Shown: in pieces, positions 9,100-42,262 of the stretch
How the letters are laid out: every line of letters begins with the position of its first letter
How positions within the stretch are numbered: position 1 is the stretch's first letter
Source of the DNA: Bolinopsis microptera
Lineage: Eukaryota; Ctenophora; Tentaculata; Lobata; Bolinopsidae
Length of the DNA stretch: 64,000 nt
Reading direction: 5' to 3'
Assembly: GCF_026151205.1 (NCBI RefSeq)
Contig: NC_087076.1
Span: 7,106,902-7,170,901 of the forward strand
The notes under the pieces: generated by a model
The model's input: the letters and a program-made list of their open reading frames with translations, nothing else
The model's database searches: none
What the model was told of the DNA's origin: nothing
Translations under genes and position numbers: made by a program

Positions 9100-9405
9100 C
9101 ATTAAAAAACGTTTTTCGAATAATTTCTGACAGAATGTTTGTTGAGCTTCTATTCCTTCCTTTGTCAATCATGAACTTGGAGCTATAATTATGATCGCGT
9201 AAAGGTATTGCTTTAGAATAATAACATTCGATTTTTATATACAATTTAAACGAAATTTTAAAAAATCTGAAAAGACATGTTTCTGCTAGTACTAATACTA
9301 TGATAAACGTAAACGGCAGAGCACAACCCCGGGCCGATGACTGGAAAAAGGCCCCGAGTAGATGATGCCCTCGCCTTTTGTAGTGAGTCTTTACAGCGGT
9401 AGTTC

Positions 9406-12382
9406 GGCACTATCCGTCGCGGAGTCGAGTCCGCGGCGGAGCCGCCGGACTCCGAGCGGACTCCGAGCGGACTCCGAGCGGACTCCGGCGGAGCCGCCGG
9501 ACTCCGAGCGGACTCCGGCGGTGCTCCGCCAAAATGTATTTACAGTGGACTCGAGTACATTTTGGCGGACTCCGAGCGGACTTTAAAGTCCGCCGCGGAC
9601 TCCGAGCGGCTCCGCGGCGGCTCGGCGGAGTGTCCGCCGCGGACTAAGCCACTAGGCGGACTCCGGTCCGCCGCGGACTCCGGCGGAGTGCTTGGCGGAC
9701 TCCGCCGGACCTCTCCGCCAGACTTGAATCCGGCGGAGTCCGGCGGAGCTTGGCGGACTCCGCCAGCTCGGCGGACTCCGCTCGGAGTCCGCCGGACTCC
9801 AACAGAGTCCACTGACTTCCGACCTCCGTCTTCCTTGTATCACGTTTCGACCCCCACGGTCGTTTCACTATGTGAAACGTAGTGACGATACGATCGTTCT
9901 GACGATACAGGGGGAGCCGCGCGTGCACGGCGGGTCATACAACGTATGACAACGTCTTCCGACCCTCGGCTAAATTTGTCACGTGACATACAACATAGCA
10001 TTTTGCAATATTGTGGTCAGATGAAAAGGTCGCTAGTGATAAACCTTAACCATTACCCTCACAATGTCAATAGTGTACAACTCTAGTCCTAACTTTGACC
10101 CTATAATGTATAAACGTTGACCCTAACCCTCCACCAAACCGTCCGCAGCGAAATATCAATGTCATTGACTGGTCACGTGACCAAAACAATTTTTGTCATA
10201 TTATCTCATATGGGGAAGCGTTTTTAGTTTTACCCTACACGTTGCATGTGGCGTCATTCGGCCGGATCCCAGCAAGCAAAAATACGTCGACCATCACAGG
10301 ACGACGCCAGCCAGCACTCTCTACGCTCTTCGAGCTCCGATCGTCCTGTGACGAAGTAAGGACGAAGCCTGAGGTCCTCAGGTAACATCGACCACCGATT
10401 GAAAATTCAAAGATTTTTTGACATAAAGGTCAAATGTAAAACTAAAATCTTGATGCTGATTGATTGACGACGTCAATTTTTGGGCACAGCGCGAGCGCAT
10501 GCGGAAAAGGACCGCGTAGCTAGTCTTAAGACACAAACTGATACCAGCACTCGTGGGCAAATAAGTATAATGAATAAATTGTGTAGAAATTAATAAATGT
10601 GACTGTGAGTGTGACATTGTGACATGTACATTTGCATTTGCAATTTGGGTACGTGGGCCGGCTCGATCCACGTGCGCGGCGCCCCCGCGCCCATTATGCT
10701 TATACATTATATCTCCAATTTCAATTGCAGTGTGGTGCTTGCGTGGCGCGGCGGGTCGGGTACTCATGTACTTGATTATTGAGAGTACCCCATCTTATGA
10801 ACGATAGATGAACTAACAATATATTTTGAAGTTTTTTTTGAAGTATATTACATGTATTGATTATTCTGTGGCAAATAAAATTCTCTTTTTCTTAAATTCT
10901 CTTTTTCTTAATTCTTGTTCATTGAAATATTACCGCCAGCGAGGAGCCGCAGCTGCGACTGCAAGCCGTGTTACCCACTTCCCTGTACTGTATTGTGATC
11001 AGCATGAGTTTAATCAAAGTAATGTGTATCACTCGCTTCACTCGATCCGAAATTAAAGTATACAATCCTACAACGCTAAGCTAGCCCTCATTAAATTTGT
11101 GGAGAAAATCGCTCGCAAAAATTTGTTGGACCAGGACGATGTCCTAGCCTGGCAGCTCATTGCGCGGCGCGTCGCAACGAGCTTCGTTGTTCGTCGACGT
11201 GCGACGAGCAACGAGAAAAATTGTGTGGCGCGTCGAGTGGCACATCTTAACGGGGGATACGCGTATAAATTTCGATCGCTGACGTACAGCGAGCAGCACA
11301 GCTGCGAATGGCGTCAGCTAGTAGGATTTCATCCTACAAGGCACATCGCGTTTACCTAGCTAACCAGGTCATTTCCGCCCCCGGCGGTCGCGTGCTACTG
11401 CAAGCGAGAGGGCTATAGTTAGAGCAACACATCGCGCCACAAGCCAAATATTTATCAACATCTTGACTAGCTACGCGGTCCTTTTCCGCATGCGCTCGCG
11501 CTGTGCTCAAAAATTGACGTCGTCAATCAATCAACATTAAGATTTTAGTTTTACATTTGACCTTTATGTCAAAAAATCTTTGAATTTTCAATCGGTGGTC
11601 GATGTTACCTGAGGACCTCAGGCTTCGTCCTTACTTCGTCACAGGACGATCAGAGCTCGAAGAGCGTAGAGAGTGCTGGCTGGCGTCGTCCTGTGATGGT
11701 CGACGTATTTTTGCTTGCTAAAAACGCTTCCCTATATGAGATAATATGACAAAAATTGTTTTGGTCACGTGACCAGTCAATGACATTGATATTTCGCTGC
11801 GGACGGTTTGGTGGAGGGTTAGGGTCAACGTTTATACATTATAGGGTCAAAGTTAGGACTAGAGTTGTACACTATTGACATTGTGAGGGTAATGGTTAAG
11901 GTTTATCACTAGCGACCTTTTCATCTGACCACAATATTGCAAAATGCTATGTTGTATGTCACGTGACAAATTTAGCCGAGGGTCGGAAGACGGAGGTCGG
12001 AAATCAGTGGACTCTGTTGGAGTCCGGCGGACTCCGAGCGGAGTCCGCCGAGCTGGCGGACTCCGCCAAGCTCCGCCGGACTCCGCCGGATTCAAGTCTG
12101 GCGGAGAGGTCCGGCGGAGTCCGCCAAGCACTCCGCCGGAGTCCGCGGCGGACCGGAGTCCGCCTAGTGGCTTAGTCCGCGGCAGACACTCCGCCGAGCC
12201 GCCGCGGAGCCGCTCGGAGTCCGCGGCGGACTTTAAAGTCCGCTCGGAGTCCGCTCGGCTCCACTCGGAGTCCGCCAAAATGTACTCGAGTCCACTGTAA
12301 ATACATTTTGGCGGAGCACCGCCGGAGTCCGCTCGGAGTCCGGCGGCTCCGCCGCGGACTCGACTCCGCGACGGATAGTGCC
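9406..12382. mobile_element. Foldback-type DNA transposon, copy 1 (2977 bp, 8-bp target duplication)
   Basis: The ends are exact inverted copies of GGCACTATCCGTCGCGGAGT. Perfect 8-bp duplications, GGTAGTTC, flank the element at 9398-9405 and 12383-12390. Each arm starts with about 400 bp of GC-rich DNA made of ggactccg/cggagtcc units with nested hairpins, followed by AT-rich arm sequence containing TCACGTGAC and a gaggacctcagg palindrome. The left arm matches the right to about 10536; the inner part of the left arm has been replaced by about 220 bp of unrelated DNA. The centre (about 10760-11090) matches the central spacer of copy 2 in the opposite orientation. The right arm lacks about 43 bp present in the left arm near 10225-10270. 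No transposase frame is visible; long frames over the GC-rich blocks are compositional. The superfamily is unassigned: 8-bp duplications and long arms fit MULE, P/Galileo or hAT foldback types. Confidence 0.9.
9835..9952. mobile_element. 118-bp MITE nested in foldback copy 1
   Basis: The insertion starts TTGTATCACG and ends ACGTATGACAA (imperfect inverted ends). It is flanked by perfect 8-bp duplications CGTCTTCC at 9827-9834 and 9953-9960. The opposite arm (about 11983-11995, reverse strand) has the same sequence with one CGTCTTCC and no insert, which is a direct empty site. A relative lies at 38418-38526. Confidence 0.85.
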
Positions 12383-12495
12383 GGTAGTTCCGTGGAGATG
12401 GCAGTGTTCTTCGCACTTGCATCATTGCAAATAAAAAATAGCAGTTTTACATTAAAATACTGGTTTACAATACTGGTTATCAAATTACATTATAG

Positions 12496-14577: not shown

Positions 14578-14750
14578 AAATCTGAAATCTGAAATCTGAA
14601 ATCTGAAATCTGAAATCTGAAATCTGAAATCTGAAATCTGAAATCTGAAATCTGAAATCTGAAATCTGAAATCTGAAATCTGAAATCTGAAATCTGAAAT
14701 CTGAAATCTGAAATCTGAAATCTGAAATCTGAAATCTGAAATCTAAAATC
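14578..14750. repeat. Heptanucleotide microsatellite (AAATCTG)n
   Basis: About 24 nearly perfect copies of the 7-bp unit; only the last units carry a change (atctaaaatc). The low divergence suggests recent expansion. Confidence 0.95.
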
Positions 14751-17659: not shown

Positions 17660-17821
17660 TACATATTATATATATTAGTGCTTTTCATGCAACAAGTAAA
17701 ACAAATCCTTTATCATTTATGTCATGTTTCCAGGGTTTGGACTGGAATTTCCCGCTTAAAGAACCTCCATCACGTTACATTACATAATTTTCTGAAACAT
17801 ATATTACATTTACAATAAATT

Positions 17822-18919
17822 ATGCAATATCAACATTACACTAATGAGCTGAGTGCTAGAGAAAGAGATCTCTACTTCAGAGAGTTAGTAGGGGTAACAG
17901 TGCAAGGCAGGATGGGCTTGGGATCCAAGAGGAGTGTAGCCAGTGAAAAGGAAAAACTGAAAGAACTGGTATCCCACATCTCAGAGCAGGATATCCTGTT
18001 GACACTGGTAGACAAGGGAGTTCAAGGACAATTCTTAACATGGGAAAACACCATGCAGCTAGACCTAGGTTGGAACAACCTTATTTACAACTACAAGATG
18101 AGCCCTGCTCTTCTTAAGTTCCACCTCAATGCAACCCATGACGTTGCAAATACTCCAGCAAACATGAGCCTGTGGAACTATGCTGACACAGGACACTGTC
18201 CACTTTGCGGATGGAGACACTGCAACATTAAGCACATTTTGGTAGCTTGCAACTTCTCGCTGAACAACAAACGATACAATTGGAGGCATGACAACGTGCT
18301 GCGGGTCATTGCGAAATCCCTACTGGATCAAATCGAGAAGTTCAACAACAAAGATTTTAAACTTGAAGTTCAGGACTGGACAGGCTTCAAGTCATCTAGC
18401 AGCTGTTACCAAAAACCGAAGACGAAGATGAAAAGAGAGAGTCCTTTTGAGAAAGACCAAGATTGGCAGATTATCTGGGACGAAGATGACCTCCCAGCAC
18501 AGTTCCCCCAGCACATCTACGGAACTGCAGAACGTCCCGATATTGTAGTCTGGTCTGATAAAGGAAAGGTGGTCATATTAGTAGAGTTGACAGTTGGTGA
18601 CGAGAGTAACTTTAGTGACCAAGTAGAACGTAAACAAGCACGTTACAACAGAGAGCTTATTCCTGGGCTGCATGGCAGTGGGTGGAAAGCTCAGCTTTTT
18701 ACGGTAGAGGTTGGGTGTAGAGGCTTCTGGCATCATACCTTACCAGCCCTACTAAACTACTTTGGTGTTACAAAGAGAGTAAAGAAAGCAGTGTTCCAAG
18801 AGGCGGCTTTGGTTGCTCTCAGATGTTCCTATGCAATCTGGTTAGCAAGAGAAAACAAGAAGTGGAGTCCCTGCTACAACATCGCACAAAGACCCACTGT
18901 TCTACCATCAACTGAGTGA
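17822..18919 (+). CDS. 3' ORF portion of a non-LTR retrotransposon: CCHC finger plus restriction-like endonuclease
   Basis: An intact 365-residue frame begins at ATG 17822, directly after an in-frame TAA. A zinc-binding motif CPLCG…H…C is formed by C126, C129, H138 and C143. It is followed by a restriction-like endonuclease core, RPDIVVWSDKGKVVILVELT, with D240 and E255 as the likely PD-(D/E)xK acids and KQARYNREL downstream. This order (RT-linked CCHC, then endonuclease) is the C-terminus of R2/NeSL/Hero-type elements. The reverse transcriptase that should precede it is absent, so the copy is 5' truncated, although its remaining frame is unbroken. A 5S rRNA-like segment follows at 18953. Alternatively it could be a host-retained endonuclease gene, but nothing supports that. 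Confidence 0.75.
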   Translation: MQYQHYTNELSARERDLYFRELVGVTVQGRMGLGSKRSVASEKEKLKELVSHISEQDILLTLVDKGVQGQFLTWENTMQLDLGWNNLIYNYKMSPALLKFHLNATHDVANTPANMSLWNYADTGHCPLCGWRHCNIKHILVACNFSLNNKRYNWRHDNVLRVIAKSLLDQIEKFNNKDFKLEVQDWTGFKSSSSCYQKPKTKMKRESPFEKDQDWQIIWDEDDLPAQFPQHIYGTAERPDIVVWSDKGKVVILVELTVGDESNFSDQVERKQARYNRELIPGLHGSGWKAQLFTVEVGCRGFWHHTLPALLNYFGVTKRVKKAVFQEAALVALRCSYAIWLARENKKWSPCYNIAQRPTVLPSTE

Positions 18920-19376: not shown

Positions 19377-20165
19377 TTACAAAATAATATTAGGTGATTG
19401 AAACATTTCAATAAATTCATCATAAATATCACTACCATATTTACCCCAAATATTTAACCTTGATTTATAAAACTTGACAAACTTGTTGCGCAAAGCAGCT
19501 AACTTAAATCCTTGCGCAACCAATTTACCTAAAAGTTCGGTAACACAATTTTTGAAACCCTTAAGTGTCGAATTAATTCTGGCTAATCGTACTAATTGAG
19601 AAATAAATATTCCATAAGACAAATTATTTGGAACGTTTCCATCCAAAAAAGGATAAGATATAACTTTGAAATTATAATCTTTTCTTTTATCATATAACGT
19701 CACTCTAAACTTTCCTTGATAAATACTAATGTTTAAGTCTAGATAGCAACATTTACGAGCCGAAATATTAGTATTATTTACTATCATTTCCTTAGGATAA
19801 ATATCTTCTAATACATTCTGTAATAAATTGAAATCATTAAAAACTATCAAATCATCTTGATAACGAAATGTGTCTTTTAATCTTTTTAGATTTTCTGTAT
19901 CCCCTTGTTCTATCAAAAGTTTAATATATTTATATTCGTAAACATGTAAATAAACATTAGCTATTTGTGGTGCTGCATTGGTACCCATTGGTATTCCAAT
20001 AACTTGTCTATAAATTTGACCCTGATAAGTAACATAAGAATTATCAATCAAATAATTAAGACATTCCAAAAGTGTATCTTTAGAAAAATGAACTTTATTT
20101 TTACTAACATTATCAGAGAAATAGGCCTTCTTAGTATAAAGATTAGGAATAATATAAGACTTATA
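19377..20165 (-). pseudogene. Reverse transcriptase fragment (GIPMGT…YQDD type)
   Basis: On the minus strand the frame is open from 20165 down to a stop at 19377-19379; the first ATG is at 20069, but the similarity begins before it. IYRQVIGIPMGTNAAPQIAN is the palm motif, and FRYQDDLIVF is the catalytic YxDD motif. After these come YLDLNI, LYDKRKDYNF and YGIFISQLVRLAR, a set seen in Penelope-like and related retroelement RTs common in invertebrate genomes. The N-terminal fingers and any endonuclease are missing, so this is a truncated copy; which clade it belongs to is uncertain. The remaining 260 or so codons have no stop, so it is fairly young. Confidence 0.75.
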
Positions 20166-29284: not shown

Positions 29285-32613
<3,329 letters not shown>

Positions 32614-33542: not shown

Positions 33543-34340
<798 letters not shown>

Positions 34341-34367: not shown

Positions 34368-37300
34368 ACTATAGTTGACTAACTAATTGGTTGTGGGTCA
34401 GAAATTCGGTCCAAACTGTAAAATTTCGGCCCATGAAATTTCAGCTTCAAAAACTGAAAATGGGACAGAGTATGGGACAGTATGACTTTCCTTTTTTTCC
34501 CGATAATTTGACTTCCCGTATCCCAATTTGGTTTAATACCATTATCAATAAACTGTCTAATTGGTTTCTGGGCAAAAATTTCATCCAATCTGTCAAATGT
34601 GTGATCAGAAATTTTCATATCAGAAAATGGGACAGACTTTTGAAAATACAACTTTTCCTTTTGTTAAACTTTCTGCTGTGAGCTTCCTCCGATCCAAATC
34701 AAACTTTCAGCACCTCAATCATGTCATTTGCCATCTATAGTTGACTGACTAATTGGTTGTGGGTCAGAAATTCGGTCAAAACTGTAAAATTTCTGCCCAT
34801 GAAATTTCAGCTTCAAAAACTGAAAATGGGACAGAGTATGGGACAGTATGACTTTCCTTTTTTTTTCGAAAAATTTACTTCCAGTACCCCAATTTGGTTT
34901 CATACTATTATCAATTAACTGACTAATTGGTTTCTGGGCAAAAATTTCATCCAATCTGTCAAATGTGTGATCAGAAATTTTCATATCTGAAAATGGGACA
35001 GACTTTTGAAAATACAACTTTTCCTTTTGTAAAACTTTCTGCTGTGAGCTTCCTCCGATCCAAATCAAACTTTCAGCACCTCAATCTTGTCATTTACCAT
35101 CTATAATTGACTGACTAATTGGTTGTGGGTCAGAAATTCGGTCCAAACTGTAAAATTTCGGCCCATGAAATTTCAGCTTCAATAACTGAAAATGGGACAG
35201 ATATGGGACATTATGATTTTCCATTTTTTTCGAGAATTTGACTTACAGCGCCCCAATTTGGTTTCATACCATCATCAATTAACTGACTTATTGGTTTCTG
35301 GGCAAAATTTTATCCAATCTGTCAAATGTGTGATCAGAAATTTTCATATCTGAAAATGGGACAGAATTTTAAAATACAAGTTTTCCTTTTGTTAAATTTT
35401 CTGCTGTGAGCTTCCTCCGATCCAAATCAAACTTTCAGCACCTCAATCGTATCATTTGCCATCTATAGTTGACTGACTAATTGGTTGTGGGTCAGAAATT
35501 CGGTCAAAACTGTAAAATTTCGGCCCATGAAATTTCAGCTTCAAAAACTGAAAATGGGACAGAGTATGGGACAGTATGATTTTCCAATTTTTTCGAGAAT
35601 TTGACTTCCAGTACCCCCTAATTTGGTTCATACCATCATCAATTAACTATTTAATTTGTTTCTGGGCAAAAATTTCATACAATATGTCAAATGTGTGATC
35701 AGAAATTTACATATCTAAAAATGGGACAGACTTTTGAAAATACAACTTTTCCTTTTGTTAAACTTTTTGCTGTGAGCTTCTTCCGATCCAAATCAAACTT
35801 CCAGCAACTCAATCGTGTCATTTGCCATTTATAATAGACTAACTAATTGGTTGTGGGTCAGAAATTTGGTCAAAACTGTAAAATTTCGGCCCATGAAATT
35901 TCAGCTTCAAAAACTGAAAATGGGACAGAGTATGGGACAGTATGACTTTCCTTTTTTTTTCGATAATTTGACTTCCCGTATCCCAATTTGGTTTCATACC
36001 ATTATCAATAAACTGTCTAATTGGTTTCTGGGCAAACATTTCATCCAATCTGTCAAATGTGTGATCGGAATTTTTCATATCTGAAAATGGGACAGACTTT
36101 TGAAAATTCAACTTTTTCTTTTGTTAAATTTTCTGCTGAGAGCTATCTCCGACCCTAATCAAACTTTTAACATTTCAAACTTGTCATTTGCCATCTATAG
36201 TTGACTGACTAATTGGTTGCGGGTCAGAAATTCGGTCAAAACTGTAAAATTTCGGCCCATGAAATTTAAGCTTCAATAACTGAAAATGGGACAAAATATG
36301 GGACAGTATGATTTTCCAATTTTTTCGAAAATTTTTCTTCCAGTACCCCAATTTGGTTTCATACTATTATCAATTAACTGACTAATTGGTTTTTGGGCAA
36401 AAATGTCATCCAATCTGTCAAATGTGTGATCAGAAATTTTCATATCAGAAAATGGGACAGACTTTTGAAAATACAACTTTTCCTTTTGTAAAACTTTCTG
36501 CTGTGAGCTTCCTCCGATCCAAATCAAACTTTCAGCACCTCAATCTTGTCATTTACCATCTATAATTGACTGACTAATTGGTTGTGGGTCAGAAATTCGG
36601 TCCAAACTGTAAAATTTCGGCCCATGAAATTTCAGCTTCAATAACTGAAAATGGGACAGATATGGGACATTATGATTTTCCAATTTTTTCGAGAATTTGA
36701 CTTACAGCGCCCAAATTTGGTTTCATACCATCATCAATTAACTGACTTATTGGTTTCTGGGCAAAATTTTATCCAATCTGTCAAATGTGTGATCAGAAAT
36801 TTTCATATCTGAAAATGGGACAGACTTTTAAAATACAAGTTTTCCTTTTGTTAAATTTTCTGCTGTGAGCTTCCTCCGATCCAAATCAAACTTTCAGCAC
36901 CTCAATCGTATCATTTGCCATCTATAGAAATTCGGTAAAAACTGTAAAATTTCGGCCCATGAAATTTCAGCTTCAAAAACTGAAAATGGGACAGAGTATG
37001 GGACAGTATGATTTTCCATTTATTTCGAGAATTTGACTACCAGTACCCTAATTTGGTTTCATACCATCATCAATTAACTATTTAATTTGTTTCTGGGCAA
37101 AAATTTCATACAATATGTCAAATGTGTGATCAGAAATTTACATATCTAAAAATGGGACAGACTTTTGAAAATACAACATTTCCTTTTGTTAAACTTTCTG
37201 CTGTGAGCTTCCTCCGATTCAAATCAAACTTCCAGCACCTCAATCTTGTCATTTGTCATCTTGATCTATAGTTCAAAAACTGAAAATGGGACAGAGTATG

Positions 37301-37371
37301 GGACATTATGACTTTCCAATTTAATTTGTTTCTGGGCAAAAGTTTCGTCCAATCTGTCAAATGTGTGATCA
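34368..37371. repeat. Main satellite array, left part (about 365-bp units)
   Basis: Units begin near 34371, 34738, 35105, 35467, 35826, 36200, 36565 and, truncated, 36925 and 37268. Each unit has two related halves of about 180 bp: one starts ctaattggttgtgggtcaga, the other ctaattggtttctgggcaaa, and both continue to aaaatgggacag. It is therefore a dimeric higher-order repeat. Frames of 60-115 residues in every unit are by-products. Confidence 0.92.
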
Positions 37372-37379
37372 GAAATTTT

Positions 37380-40300
37380 GGCACTATCCGTCGCGGAGTA
37401 GAGTCCGCGGCGGAGCCGCCGGACTCCGAGCGGAGTCCGGCGGTGCTCCGCCAAAATGTATTTACACTGGACTCGAGTACATTTTGGCGGACTCCGAGCG
37501 GAGCCAAGCGGACTCCGAGCGGACTTTAAAGTCCGCCGCGGACTCCGAGCGGCTCCGCGGCGGCTCGGCGGAGTGTCCGCCGCGGACTAAGCCACTAGGC
37601 GGACTCCGGTCCGCCGCGGACTCCGGCGGAGTGCTTGGCGGACCTCTCCGCCGGACTTGAATCCGGCGGAGTCCGGCGGAGCTTGGACTCCGCTCGGAGT
37701 CCGCCAGACTCCAACAGAGTCCACTGACTTCCGACTTCCGACTTCCGACCCTCGGCTAAATTTATCACGTGACATACAACATAGCATTTTGTGATATTGT
37801 GGTTAGATGAAAAGGTCGCTAGTGATAAACCTTAACCATTACCCTCACAATATCAATAGTGTACAACTCTAGTCCTAACTTTGAGTTTGACCCTATAATG
37901 TATAAACGTTGACCCTAACCCTCCACCAAACCGCCAGCAGCGAAATATCAATGTCATTGACTGGTCACGTGACCAAAACAATTTTTGTCATATTATCTCA
38001 TCACTCATATAGGGAAGCGTTTTTAGTTTTACCCTACACGTTGCATGTGGCGTCATTCGGCTGGATCCCAGTAAGCAAAAATACGTCGACCATCACAGGA
38101 CGACGCCAGCACTTTCTACGCTCGTCGAGCTCCGATCGTCCTGTGACGAAGTAAGAACGAAGCCTGAGGTCCTCAGGTAACATCGACCACCGATTGAAAA
38201 TTCAAAGATTTTTTGACATAAAGGTCAAATGTAAAACTAAAATCTTGATGTTGATTGATTGACGACGTCAATTTTTGAGCACAGCGCATGCGGAAAAGGA
38301 CCGCGTAGCTAGTCAGGATGTTGATAAATATTTGACTTGTAGTTGTGGCGCGATGTGTTGCTCTAACTATAGCCCTTTCGCTTGCAGTAGCGCGCGACCG
38401 CCGGAGGCGGAAATGACTTGTATCACGTTGCGACCCCCACGGTCGTTTCACTATCGTTTTTATCGTCCTGACGATACGAGGGGAGCCGCGCACTTCGTGC
38501 GCGGTGGGTTATACAACGTATGACAAGAAATGACCTGGTTAGCTAGGTAAACGCGATGTGCCTTGTAGGATGAAATCCTACTAGCTGACGCCACTCGCAG
38601 CTGTGCTGCTCGCTGTACGTCAGCGATCGAAATTTATACGCGTATCACCCGTTAAGATGTGCCACCCGACGTGCCACTTAATTTTTTTCGTTGCTCGTCG
38701 CACGTCGACGAACAACGAAGCTCGTTGCGACGCGCAATGATGAATGAGCTGCCAGGCTAGTACATCGTCCTGGTCCAACAAATTTTGGCGAGCGATTTTC
38801 TCCAAAAATTTAATGAGGGCGCCGACTTCCACTTTGGCTAGGTTTCTTGTTACCCAGCGCGCGTTCCTTAATTAGGTAAAATTAGGTAAAAAGAATCCAC
38901 TGACTTGGCCAGAGTGCTTTCATAAAACTGTATTACTAGCTTGGCGTTGTAGGATTATATACTTTAATTTCGGATCGAGTGAAGCGAGTGATACACATTA
39001 CTTTGATTAAACTCATGCTGATCACAATACAGTACAGGGAAGTGGGTAACACGGCTTGCAGTCGCAGCTGCAGCTCCTCGCTGGCGGTAATATTTCAATG
39101 AACAAGAATTAAGAAAAAGAGAATTTAAGAAAAAGAGAATTTTATTTGCCACAGAATAATCAATACATATAATATACTTCAAAAACTTCAAAATATATTG
39201 TAACATATAAGTTCATTTATCGTTCATAAGATGGGGTACTCTCAAAAATCAAGTATATGAGTACCCGACCCGCCGCGCTGGGTAACAAGAATAAAGAAAC
39301 CTAGCCAGAGTGGAAGTCGGCGCCCTCATTAAATTTTTGGAGAAAATCGCTCGCCAAAATTTGTTGGACCAGGACGATGTCCTAGCCTGGCAGCTCATTG
39401 CGCGTCGCAACGAGCTTTGTTGTTCGTCGACGTGCGACGAGCAACGAGAAAAATTAAGTGGCGCGTCGGGTGGCACATCTTAACGGGTGATACGCGTATA
39501 AATTTCGATCGCTGACGTACAGCGAGCAGCACAGCTGCGAGTGGCGTCAGCTAGTAGGATTTCATCCTACAAGGCACATCGCGTTTACCTAGCTAACCAG
39601 GTCATTTCCGCCTCCGGCGGTCGCGCGCTACTGCAAGCGAGAGGGCTATAGTTAGAGCAACACATCGCGCCACAAGTCAAATATTTATCAACATCCTGAC
39701 TAGCTACGCGGTCCTTTTCCGCATGCGCTGTGCTCAAAAATTGACGTCGTCAATCAATCAACATCAAGATTTTAGTTTTACATTTGACCTTTATGTCAAA
39801 AAATCTCTGAATTTTCAATCGGTGGTCGATGTTACCTGAGGACCTCAGGCTTCGTCCTTACTTCGTCACAGGACGATCGGAGCTCGAAGAGCGTAGAGAG
39901 TGCTGGCTGGCGTCGTCCTGTGATGGTCGACGTATTTTTGCTTGCTGGGATCCGGCCGAATGACGCCACATGCAACGTGTAGGGTAAAACTAAAAACGCT
40001 TCCCTATATGAGATAATATGGCAAAAATTGTTTTGGTCACGTGACCAGTCAATGACATTGATATTTCGCTGCTGACGGTTTGGTGGAGGGTTAGGGTCAA
40101 CGTTTATACATTATAGGGTCAAAGTTAGGACTAGAGTTGTACACTATTGACATTGTGAGGGTAATGGTTAAGGTTTATCACTAGCGACCTTTTCATCTGA
40201 CCACAATATTGCAAAATGCTATGTTGTAATTGTATGTCACGTGACAAATTTAGCCGAGGGTCGGAAGTCGGAGGTCGGAAGTCAGTGGACTCTGTTGGAG

Positions 40301-40633
40301 TTCGGCGGACTCCGAGCGGAGTCCGCCGAGCTGGTGGACTCCGCCAAGCTCCGCCGGACTCCGCCGGATTCAAGTCCGCCGGAGAGGTCCGCCGGAGTCC
40401 GCCAAGCACTCCGCCGGAGTCCGCGGCGGACCGGAGTCCGCCTAGTGGCTTAGTCCGCGGCGGACACTCCGCCGAGCCGCCGCTCGGAGTCCGCGGCGGA
40501 CTTTAAAGTCCGCTCGGAGTCCGCTCGGCTCCGCTCGGAGTCCGCCAAAATGTATTCGAGTCCAGTGTAAATACATTTTGGCGGAGCACCGGCGGCTCCG
40601 GGCCGCGGACTCTACTCCGCGACGGATAGTGCC
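37380..40633. mobile_element. Foldback-type DNA transposon, copy 2 (3254 bp, 8-bp target duplication)
   Basis: The ends are identical to copy 1 (GGCACTATCCGTCGCGGAGT and its inverse), with perfect duplications GAAATTTT at 37372-37379 and 40634-40641. The site is a satellite unit, and neighbouring units carry the uninterrupted sequence gtgatcagaaattttcatat, so the insertion is proven by paralogous empty sites. The left arm runs 37380 to about 38863 (including a nested MITE), the right arm about 39274-40633, and the spacer is only about 410 bp; more than four fifths of the element is inverted repeat. GC-rich blocks of ggactccg units lie at 37386-37735 and 40275-40627, with an inner hairpin ccgccaaaatgta…tacattttggcgg. 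The spacer matches copy 1 in reverse orientation. No transposase was found. Confidence 0.93.
38418..38526. mobile_element. 109-bp MITE nested in foldback copy 2
   Basis: Starts TTGTATCACG and ends ACGTATGACAA, related throughout to 9835-9952 (cccccacggtcgtttcacta, ggggagccgcgc). Flanked by GAAATGAC at 38410-38417 and 38527-38534. The right arm at about 39598-39612 and copy 1 at about 11367-11385 show the uninterrupted site. Confidence 0.88.
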
Positions 40634-40641
40634 GAAATTTT

Positions 40642-42262
40642 CATATCTGAAAATGGGACAGACTTTTGAAAATACAAATTTTCCTTTTGTTAAACTTTTT
40701 GCTGTGAGCCTTCTCCGATCCAAATCAAACTTCCAACAACTCAATCGTGTCATTTTCCATTTATAATTGACTAACTAATTGGTTGTAGGTCAGAAATTTG
40801 GTCAAAACTGTAAAATTTCGGCTCATGAAATTTCAGCTTCAAAAACTGAAAATGGGACAGAGTATGGGACAGTATGATTTTCCATTTATTTCGAGAATTT
40901 GACTACCAGTACCCCAATTTGGTTTCATACCATCATCAATTAACTATTTAATTTGTTTCTGGGCAAAAATTTCATCCAATCTTTCAAATGTGTGATCAGA
41001 AATTTACATATCTAAAAATGGGACAGACTTTTGAAAATACAACATTTCCTTTTGTTAAACTTTCTGCTGTGAGCTTCCTCCGACCCAAATCAAACTTTCA
41101 GCACCTCAATCGTGTCATTTTCCATCTATAGTTGACTGACTAATTGGTTGTGGGTCAGAAATTCGTTCAAAACTGTAAAATTTCGGCCCATAAAATTTCA
41201 GCTTCAAAAACTGAAAATGGGACAGAGTATGGGACAGTATGATTTTCCATTTTTTTTCGAGAATTTGACTTCTAGTTCCCCAATTCGGTTTCATACCATC
41301 ATCAATCAACTGACTTATTGGTTACTTCTAGTTCCCCAATTCGGTTTCATACCATCATCAATCAACTGACTTATTGGTTACTGGGCAAAAATTTCATCCA
41401 ATCTGTCAAATAAGTGATCAGAAATTTACATATCTGAAAATGGGACAGACTTTTGAAAATACAACTTTTCCTTTTGTTAAATTTTCTGCTGTGAGCTTCC
41501 TCCGATCTAAATCAAACTTCCAGCACCTCAATCGTGTCATTTGCCATCTATAGTTGACTGACTAATTGGTTGCGGGTCAGAAATTCGGTCAAAACTGTAA
41601 AATTTCGGCCCATGAAATTTCAGCTCAAAAACTGAAAATGGGACAGAGTATAGGACTGTATGATTTTCCATTTTTTTTCGAGAATTTGACTTCCAGTGTC
41701 CCAATTTGGTTTCATACCATCATCAATTAACTGACTAATTGGTTTCTGGGCAAAAATTTCATCCAATCTGTCAAATGTGTGATCAGAAATTTTCATATCT
41801 GAAAATGGGACAGACTTTTGAAAATACAACTATTCCTTTTGTTAAACGTTCTGCTGTGAGCTTCCTCCGATCCAAATCAAACTTCAAGCACCTCAATCGT
41901 GTCATTTGCCATCTATAGTTGACTGACTAATTGGTTGCGGCTCAGAAATTCGGTCAAAACTGTAAAATTTCTGCCCATGAAATTTCAGCTCAGAGACTGA
42001 AAATGGGACAGAGTATAGGACAGTATGATTTTCCTTTTTTTCCCCCGAGAATTTGACTTCCAGTGTCCCAATTTGGTTTCATACTATCATCAATTAACTG
42101 ACTAATTGGTTTCTGGGCAAAAATTTTATCCAATATGTCAAATGTGTGATCAGAAAGTTTCATATCTGAAAATGGGACAGACTTTTGAAAATACAACTAT
42201 TCCTTTTGTTAAACTTTCTGCTGTGAGCTTCTTCGACCCTAATCAAACTTCCCTAAATAACT
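40642..42262. repeat. Main satellite array, right part
   Basis: Continues the array interrupted by foldback copy 2; units begin near 40766, 41130, 41555 and 41917. A 62-bp local duplication (acttctagttccccaattcg…) occurs at about 41267-41390. The array ends near 42262. Confidence 0.9.

Follow-up and report, generated by a model that had tools for sequence, protein, structure and literature searches.

Two foldback copies in the window

The window, a 64,000-nucleotide stretch of the Bolinopsis microptera assembly (C5:7106902-7170901), contains the exons of a tubulin gene at 29333-30639 (Pfam Tubulin and Tubulin_C), 24.7 copies of the 7-mer AAATCTG at 14578-14750 (99% match), and possible remnants of reverse-transcriptase elements at 17819-18919 and 19377-20165 (zf-RVT and RVT_1, both below cut-off). 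An approximately 800-bp GA-type microsatellite at 33545-34340 lies immediately ahead of a 366-bp satellite. The 20-bp sequence GGCACTATCCGTCGCGGAGT has only four occurrences in the window, starting at 9406 and 37380 on the forward strand and ending at 12382 and 40633 on the reverse strand, and these four ends form two facing pairs that bound two foldback copies. The features are listed below (strand given where one applies).

9398..9405, 8-bp target duplication to the left of copy 1, GGTAGTTC
9406..12382, foldback copy 1, 2,977 bp, 61-65% inverted repeat, loop of about 0.9 kb
12383..12390, 8-bp target duplication to the right of copy 1, GGTAGTTC
34369..42251, 366/365-bp satellite, the target of copy 2, with tandem arrays at 34369-37261 and 41324-42251
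37372..37379, 8-bp target duplication to the left of copy 2, GAAATTTT, present uninterrupted in adjacent satellite units
37380..40633, foldback copy 2, 3,254 bp, 84% (84.1%) inverted repeat
37380..38861, + strand, left arm of copy 2, with a G+C-rich outer part followed by the inner part
38862..39273, 412-bp loop (spacer) of copy 2, containing no frame of at least 120 aa
39274..40633, - strand, right arm of copy 2
40634..40641, 8-bp target duplication to the right of copy 2, GAAATTTT

The ends are of the GGCACTATCC type, with GGCAC as their first letters. Copy 1 is less palindromic than copy 2 (61-65% versus 84.1% paired), and within copy 2 positions 1-1041 pair with 3254-2219 and positions 1148-1482 with 2229-1895 (copy coordinates). 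The G+C-rich outer portion of the left arm of copy 2 takes up about 0.4 kb and carries CGGACTCCG-type repeats, and all 45 occurrences of CGGACTCCG in the window lie inside the two foldback copies. The observed/expected ratio of CpG is 1.34 in both copies versus 0.72 outside them, which fits a recent arrival of the two elements. Five frames of at least 120 aa lie inside or overlap copies 1 and 2, four of them in the arms and a fifth (138 aa) extending into the copy 1 loop, and none of the five has a Pfam match above the cut-off.

An earlier note, made from the letters of the window alone, had ascribed to copy 2 exact 20-bp inverted ends, a perfect GAAATTTT duplication, and an inverted repeat covering more than four fifths of its length around a 410-bp spacer; the ends and the duplication were both recovered, and the measured values are 84.1% and 412 bp. 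Its description of copy 1 as having the same ends and a perfect duplication of its own also holds, with GGCACTATCCGTCGCGGAGT at the termini and GGTAGTTC on both sides, and its statement that the spacer of copy 2 holds no transposase agrees with the five frames of the two copies, in which none was recognised. When the flanks of copy 2 were joined by script, 13 satellite units aligned across the junction at 87-94% identity, in alignments spanning 150-216 bp, so that the uninterrupted target that the note had seen in neighbouring satellite units is indeed present. Units related to this satellite also occur near 33.1-33.5 kb and 40.8-41.3 kb of the window. For copy 1, no second empty site was found within the window.

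Genome-wide census and target duplications

Searching the assembly (264,652,675 bases in 232 contigs) for the 20-bp end with at most one mismatch returned 121 forward and 116 reverse matches, or 237 in 264.65 Mb, whereas the reversed-pattern control returned 0 and 0 in the whole assembly. Exact ends number 197 (95 and 102), of which 195 entered the pairing analysis, where a pair was defined as a forward end with a reverse end after it at a distance of up to 60 kb. Under this definition 162 ends fall into 81 facing pairs (69 shorter than 6 kb; median 2,981 bp) and 33 are single, and among the 195 exact ends no neighbours within 6 kb were misordered or shared a strand.

Perfect 8-bp duplications flank 31 of the 40 copies examined, comprising 25 of 31 copies fetched with flanks (the two window copies, nine picked by length and 20 short ones), the single C6 copy with variant ends, and five of eight further long pairs. 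Two more copies carry a duplication with one mismatch (L067 and the copy at C12:3104158), and the remaining seven have none at up to one mismatch (C7:5864465, C6:19776853, L056, L064, L065, L074 and C7:10565035). None of the 25 perfect duplications checked reaches 9 bp, and 2,000 shuffles of partners among the 31 fetched copies produced zero matches to foreign partners. Chance is thus excluded, both by the 237 ends against none in the control and by the 25 of 31 duplications against none in the shuffles. Base composition at the 25 target sites is A+T-rich, and there is a weak symmetric preference, in which only A at position 2 (T at position 7) rises above the 99% level of random windows. The earlier note had taken two insertions to define a mobile family and had proposed a search with the 20-bp end and a count of copies and duplications; carried out across the genome, this yields 237 ends, 81 exact pairs and 31 perfect 8-bp duplications in 40 copies, which supports the reading as a mobile foldback family.

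A 13-mer of the family terminus occurs 241 times in the genome, with 0 and 1 occurrences in the reversed control. Among 100 listed places, 19 are not exact 20-mers, and three of these were read: two proved to be ends of another copy of the family and one lies in an unrelated repeat. Hence, a second family with the same terminal 13 bp was not seen at the three sites read among the 100 listed of 241.

The palindrome as the unit that multiplies

The family displays the long inverted arms with a variable loop, and the dispersed copies with target duplications, that characterize the foldback class. In 22 copies shorter than 4 kb a median of 80% of the sequence is paired (range 5-100%), loop length differs between copies, and in four of the 31 fetched copies the self-pairing runs from end to end, at 83-93% identity. 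Ten of the 31 copies share, to within five mismatches, an inner junction of 80 bp that was initially found in L067; eight of these ten also carry their own perfect duplication, and the other 21 copies differ from the junction at 24 or more positions. This common junction is not tied to one size, being present in three of the five fetched copies of 2.6-2.7 kb (L055 and L073 are without it), in copies of 2.2, 3.3 and 3.5 kb, and in two long copies. Gap-free identity among six hand-picked copies of 2.6-2.75 kb is 98.6-99.3%, and it is 89-97.5% when gaps are counted. Since one inner junction is common to 10 of 31 copies, the palindrome itself is the unit that spread, and its multiplication is shown for at least about one third of the sampled copies. 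The variable loop lengths and the 21 copies without the common junction would also fit a scenario in which palindromes are not mobile as such but arise anew at each site through hairpin repair of a one-armed element; however, the occurrence of the same junction (at most five mismatches in 80) at ten separate loci, eight of them perfectly duplicated, makes such repeated formation almost certainly the wrong account.

The arms have a median identity to the arms of other copies (gaps excluded) of 0.95-0.99 in 22 of the 31 copies; in the other nine, where truncation, interruption or poor alignment affects the arms, it is 0.66-0.84. Hairpin gene conversion homogenising the two arms of a copy was considered and is unsupported: the two arms of one copy are identical at a mean of 0.908 versus 0.907 over all pairs, and they are reciprocal best matches in only one of the 31 copies. 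Own-arm pairs lie slightly above the median of the others in 19 of the 31, making weak homogenisation within copies possible.

Search for a transposase inside the copies

The interiors of 31 of the 81 pairs were read, including nine long copies fetched in full; the other 50 pairs, of which seven or more measure 4.5-27 kb, and the 33 single ends lie outside this reading. The scan covered open frames of at least 95 aa, so that spliced or decayed genes could be missed. Within the 33 frames obtained, 28 from fetched copies and five from the window copies, no transposase scored above the Pfam cut-off, and the matches that did were RVT_1 and Exo_endo_phos_2, domains of retroelements. An autonomous partner was likewise not found among the 31 of 81 pairs whose interiors were read. 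Other elements make up part of the additional sequence in the longest copies: reverse transcriptases are present in the 17.9-kb and 22-kb copies, and the 25-kb copy contains a tandem array with units of about 0.35 kb (judged by eye). The 25-kb and 11-kb copies were considered as autonomous forms on account of their large frames and perfect duplications and were rejected, as these frames belong to other elements.

Two large frames, of 1341 aa (L052:2145-6167) and 1267 aa (L043:1672-5472), both lie within copies bearing perfect 8-bp duplications, and one of them could in principle be the transposase of an autonomous long form. Their distribution makes this very unlikely. The 1341-aa gene has copies on C12 and C13 that are 99-100% identical in DNA with no exact foldback end nearby, and these two versions extend jointly past the stop of the version in the foldback copy. 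The element begins with TAGGGGGTGCAC, and in all three gene copies this left end follows unrelated flanks, with one base different on C13; the C12 copy contains one in-frame stop, and C13 also holds an open relative at 36%. The 1341-aa gene within the foldback copy is thus part of a nested, truncated element, and its protein may be an undescribed transposase. Likewise, the 1267-aa gene has copies of 100% identity (rounded) on C11 and C7, away from any of the 195 listed exact ends, and more distant relatives at 28-36%; it is another gene of low copy number that was copied recently. Neither protein has a Pfam match above the cut-off or a meaningful PDB match.

Candidate sources of the transposase

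The enzyme would be supplied in trans, with a Merlin-type or a MULE transposase as the most likely source; many of the genome's matches to both domains lie in open frames. Merlin elements are described as having 5'-GG ends and duplications of 8 or 9 bp (PMC8101967), and the foldback family, with ends that start with GG and 8-bp duplications, fits both published traits. The genome contains 58 matches to DDE_Tnp_IS1595, several of them in open frames of 318-337 aa, but all 58 lie outside the paired exact ends and over 12 kb away from the listed ends; mobilisation by a Merlin-type (IS1595-like) transposase is put forward tentatively. The Mutator-type (MULE) alternative, which has been proposed for most foldback families, can draw on 88 domain matches in the genome, one of which (C7:10589183) is located within a 27-kb copy that bears a perfect duplication (87 of the 88 positions were compared); about 0.14 would be expected inside pairs by chance. 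However, nine other MULE matches outside paired ends, in frames 165-207 aa long, likewise cover profile positions 13-98, a kinship judged by profile coordinates only, so that the match at C7:10589183 may itself be a nested insertion. MULE duplications range from 8 to 11 bp and are mostly of 9 bp; those of Tm1 are mostly 9 bp and those of Tetris 8-10 bp, whereas none of the 25 checked here reaches 9 bp. The accounts of Tetris (PMC4079207) and Tm1 (PMC3169594) assign these elements to Mutator or its vicinity, and a MULE source is possible, if somewhat doubtful. The GG ends and 8-bp duplications lean to Merlin and the precedent of other foldback elements leans to Mutator, and the family is filed under neither, in line with the view of the earlier note that no superfamily is evident.

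Other suppliers, of the P, KDZ or another type, are possible. Ends of hAT elements are of the C/T-A-x-x-G type, a pattern that the GGCAC start of the foldback ends does not follow. P elements are reported to create 8-bp duplications (PMC4168063), and the P-type domain PF21787 has zero matches in the genome, with zero also in the control genomes. Zisupton/KDZ elements are described with an 8-bp duplication, as in the foldback family (PMC12730594). Galileo itself is an unlikely identity for the family, as its targets are mostly 7 bp with GTANTAC, against 8 bp and only a weak A2/T7 preference here. Of the likeness to Galileo/Foldback or MULE elements that the earlier note had drawn, the part concerning Galileo is therefore unlikely to hold (8 bp, no GTANTAC), while the placement in the foldback class and the lack of a superfamily match stand.

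Family identity and relation to known foldback systems

With high confidence, these copies represent a young, apparently non-autonomous family of foldback DNA transposons that would move by cut-and-paste with a transposase acting in trans and multiplies from palindromic source copies. The ends, the duplications, the empty sites, the common inner junction and the near-identity of the copies are observed directly; the cut-and-paste movement and the supply in trans are inferred. In the proposed mechanism, a transposase encoded elsewhere would recognise the identical outer ends of both arms, and the whole palindrome would be cut out and inserted through an 8-bp staggered cut, giving rise to the 8-bp duplications. 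The multiplying units would be source copies that are already palindromic, among them one that is nearly loopless.

The family is new, and is compared here with known systems by the features described for them. Sea urchin TU elements have long inverted arms with a repetitive outer domain, 8-bp duplications and no autonomous function. Compared by features alone, the Bolinopsis family resembles them in all these respects, and differs in that its outer part consists of degenerate CGGACTCCG-type repeats and that a near-loopless form multiplies. A sea urchin foldback is cited in an account of Tetris (PMC4079207), an element of Drosophila virilis that, like the present family, is described with modular arms (up to 1.7 kb), no autonomous copy found and a link to satellite DNA. 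In contrast, Tetris has duplications of 8-10 bp and gave a satellite its building blocks, whereas here the element inserted into a satellite (PMC4079207). Tm1 of root-knot nematodes (Mutator/Foldback) likewise has composite long arms, internal repeats, many non-autonomous forms and nested insertions, but its duplications are given as 8-10 bp (mostly 9), its ends carry asymmetric 7-bp motifs, and some of its members have a putative transposase (PMC3169594). Galileo, of the P superfamily, shares very long arms, many rearranged copies and nested insertions, and is distinguished by mostly 7-bp duplications, a GTANTAC consensus and a P-type transposase, with 8-bp duplications reported for three D. 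willistoni copies (PMC4168063). Merlin elements share GG ends and duplications of 8 or 9 bp, but their published arms measure 24-462 bp (PMC8101967), and no Merlin domain was found between paired exact foldback ends. No published account of a ctenophore foldback element or of a Bolinopsis inverted-repeat transposon was found among the open-access papers searched.

Possible roles in rearrangement and genome folding

At C7:5864265-5869760 (L040), a foldback copy that lacks a target duplication occupies the middle of an inverted duplication formed by the flanking DNA. The mirror flanks are 95% identical over 190 bp by global alignment and 98% identical over 195 bp by genome search, and elsewhere in the genome their sequence is matched only once, at 73%. 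Such flanks occur in one of the 31 flank-fetched copies, the others showing 44-55% identity. In addition, at C6:19776853-19822683 (L002, L092 and L093) facing ends lie 45.8 kb apart with their outer 12 bases as mirror images. The natural reading of the sequence at both loci would be an inverted duplication centred on the foldback element, and the main alternative is an assembly error from palindromic reads, against which the 2-5% divergence of the C7 flanks counts to some degree. A wider proposal, that besides hopping the palindromes act as break or fold points which turn flanking unique DNA into inverted duplications, we consider rather unlikely at present. In the ctenophore Mnemiopsis, loop anchors are reported to contain a G+C-rich motif that has two CpGs and serves as a binding site for CTEP1 and CTEP2, and more than 90% of looping promoter regions to carry a DNA-transposon insertion (PMC12221973). 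By analogy, the G+C- and CpG-rich outer repeats of the foldback family could be putative sites for ctenophore loop-anchor proteins.

A chromosome-scale assembly seldom reveals foldback elements whose ends are intact, together with empty sites and numerous near-identical copies, and this family shows that an almost loopless palindrome is able to multiply as a unit, providing a defined substrate for finding a transposase that tolerates such palindromes. It also offers loci at which inverted duplication driven by foldback elements can be tested, and the family may occasionally rearrange the genome of the animal.
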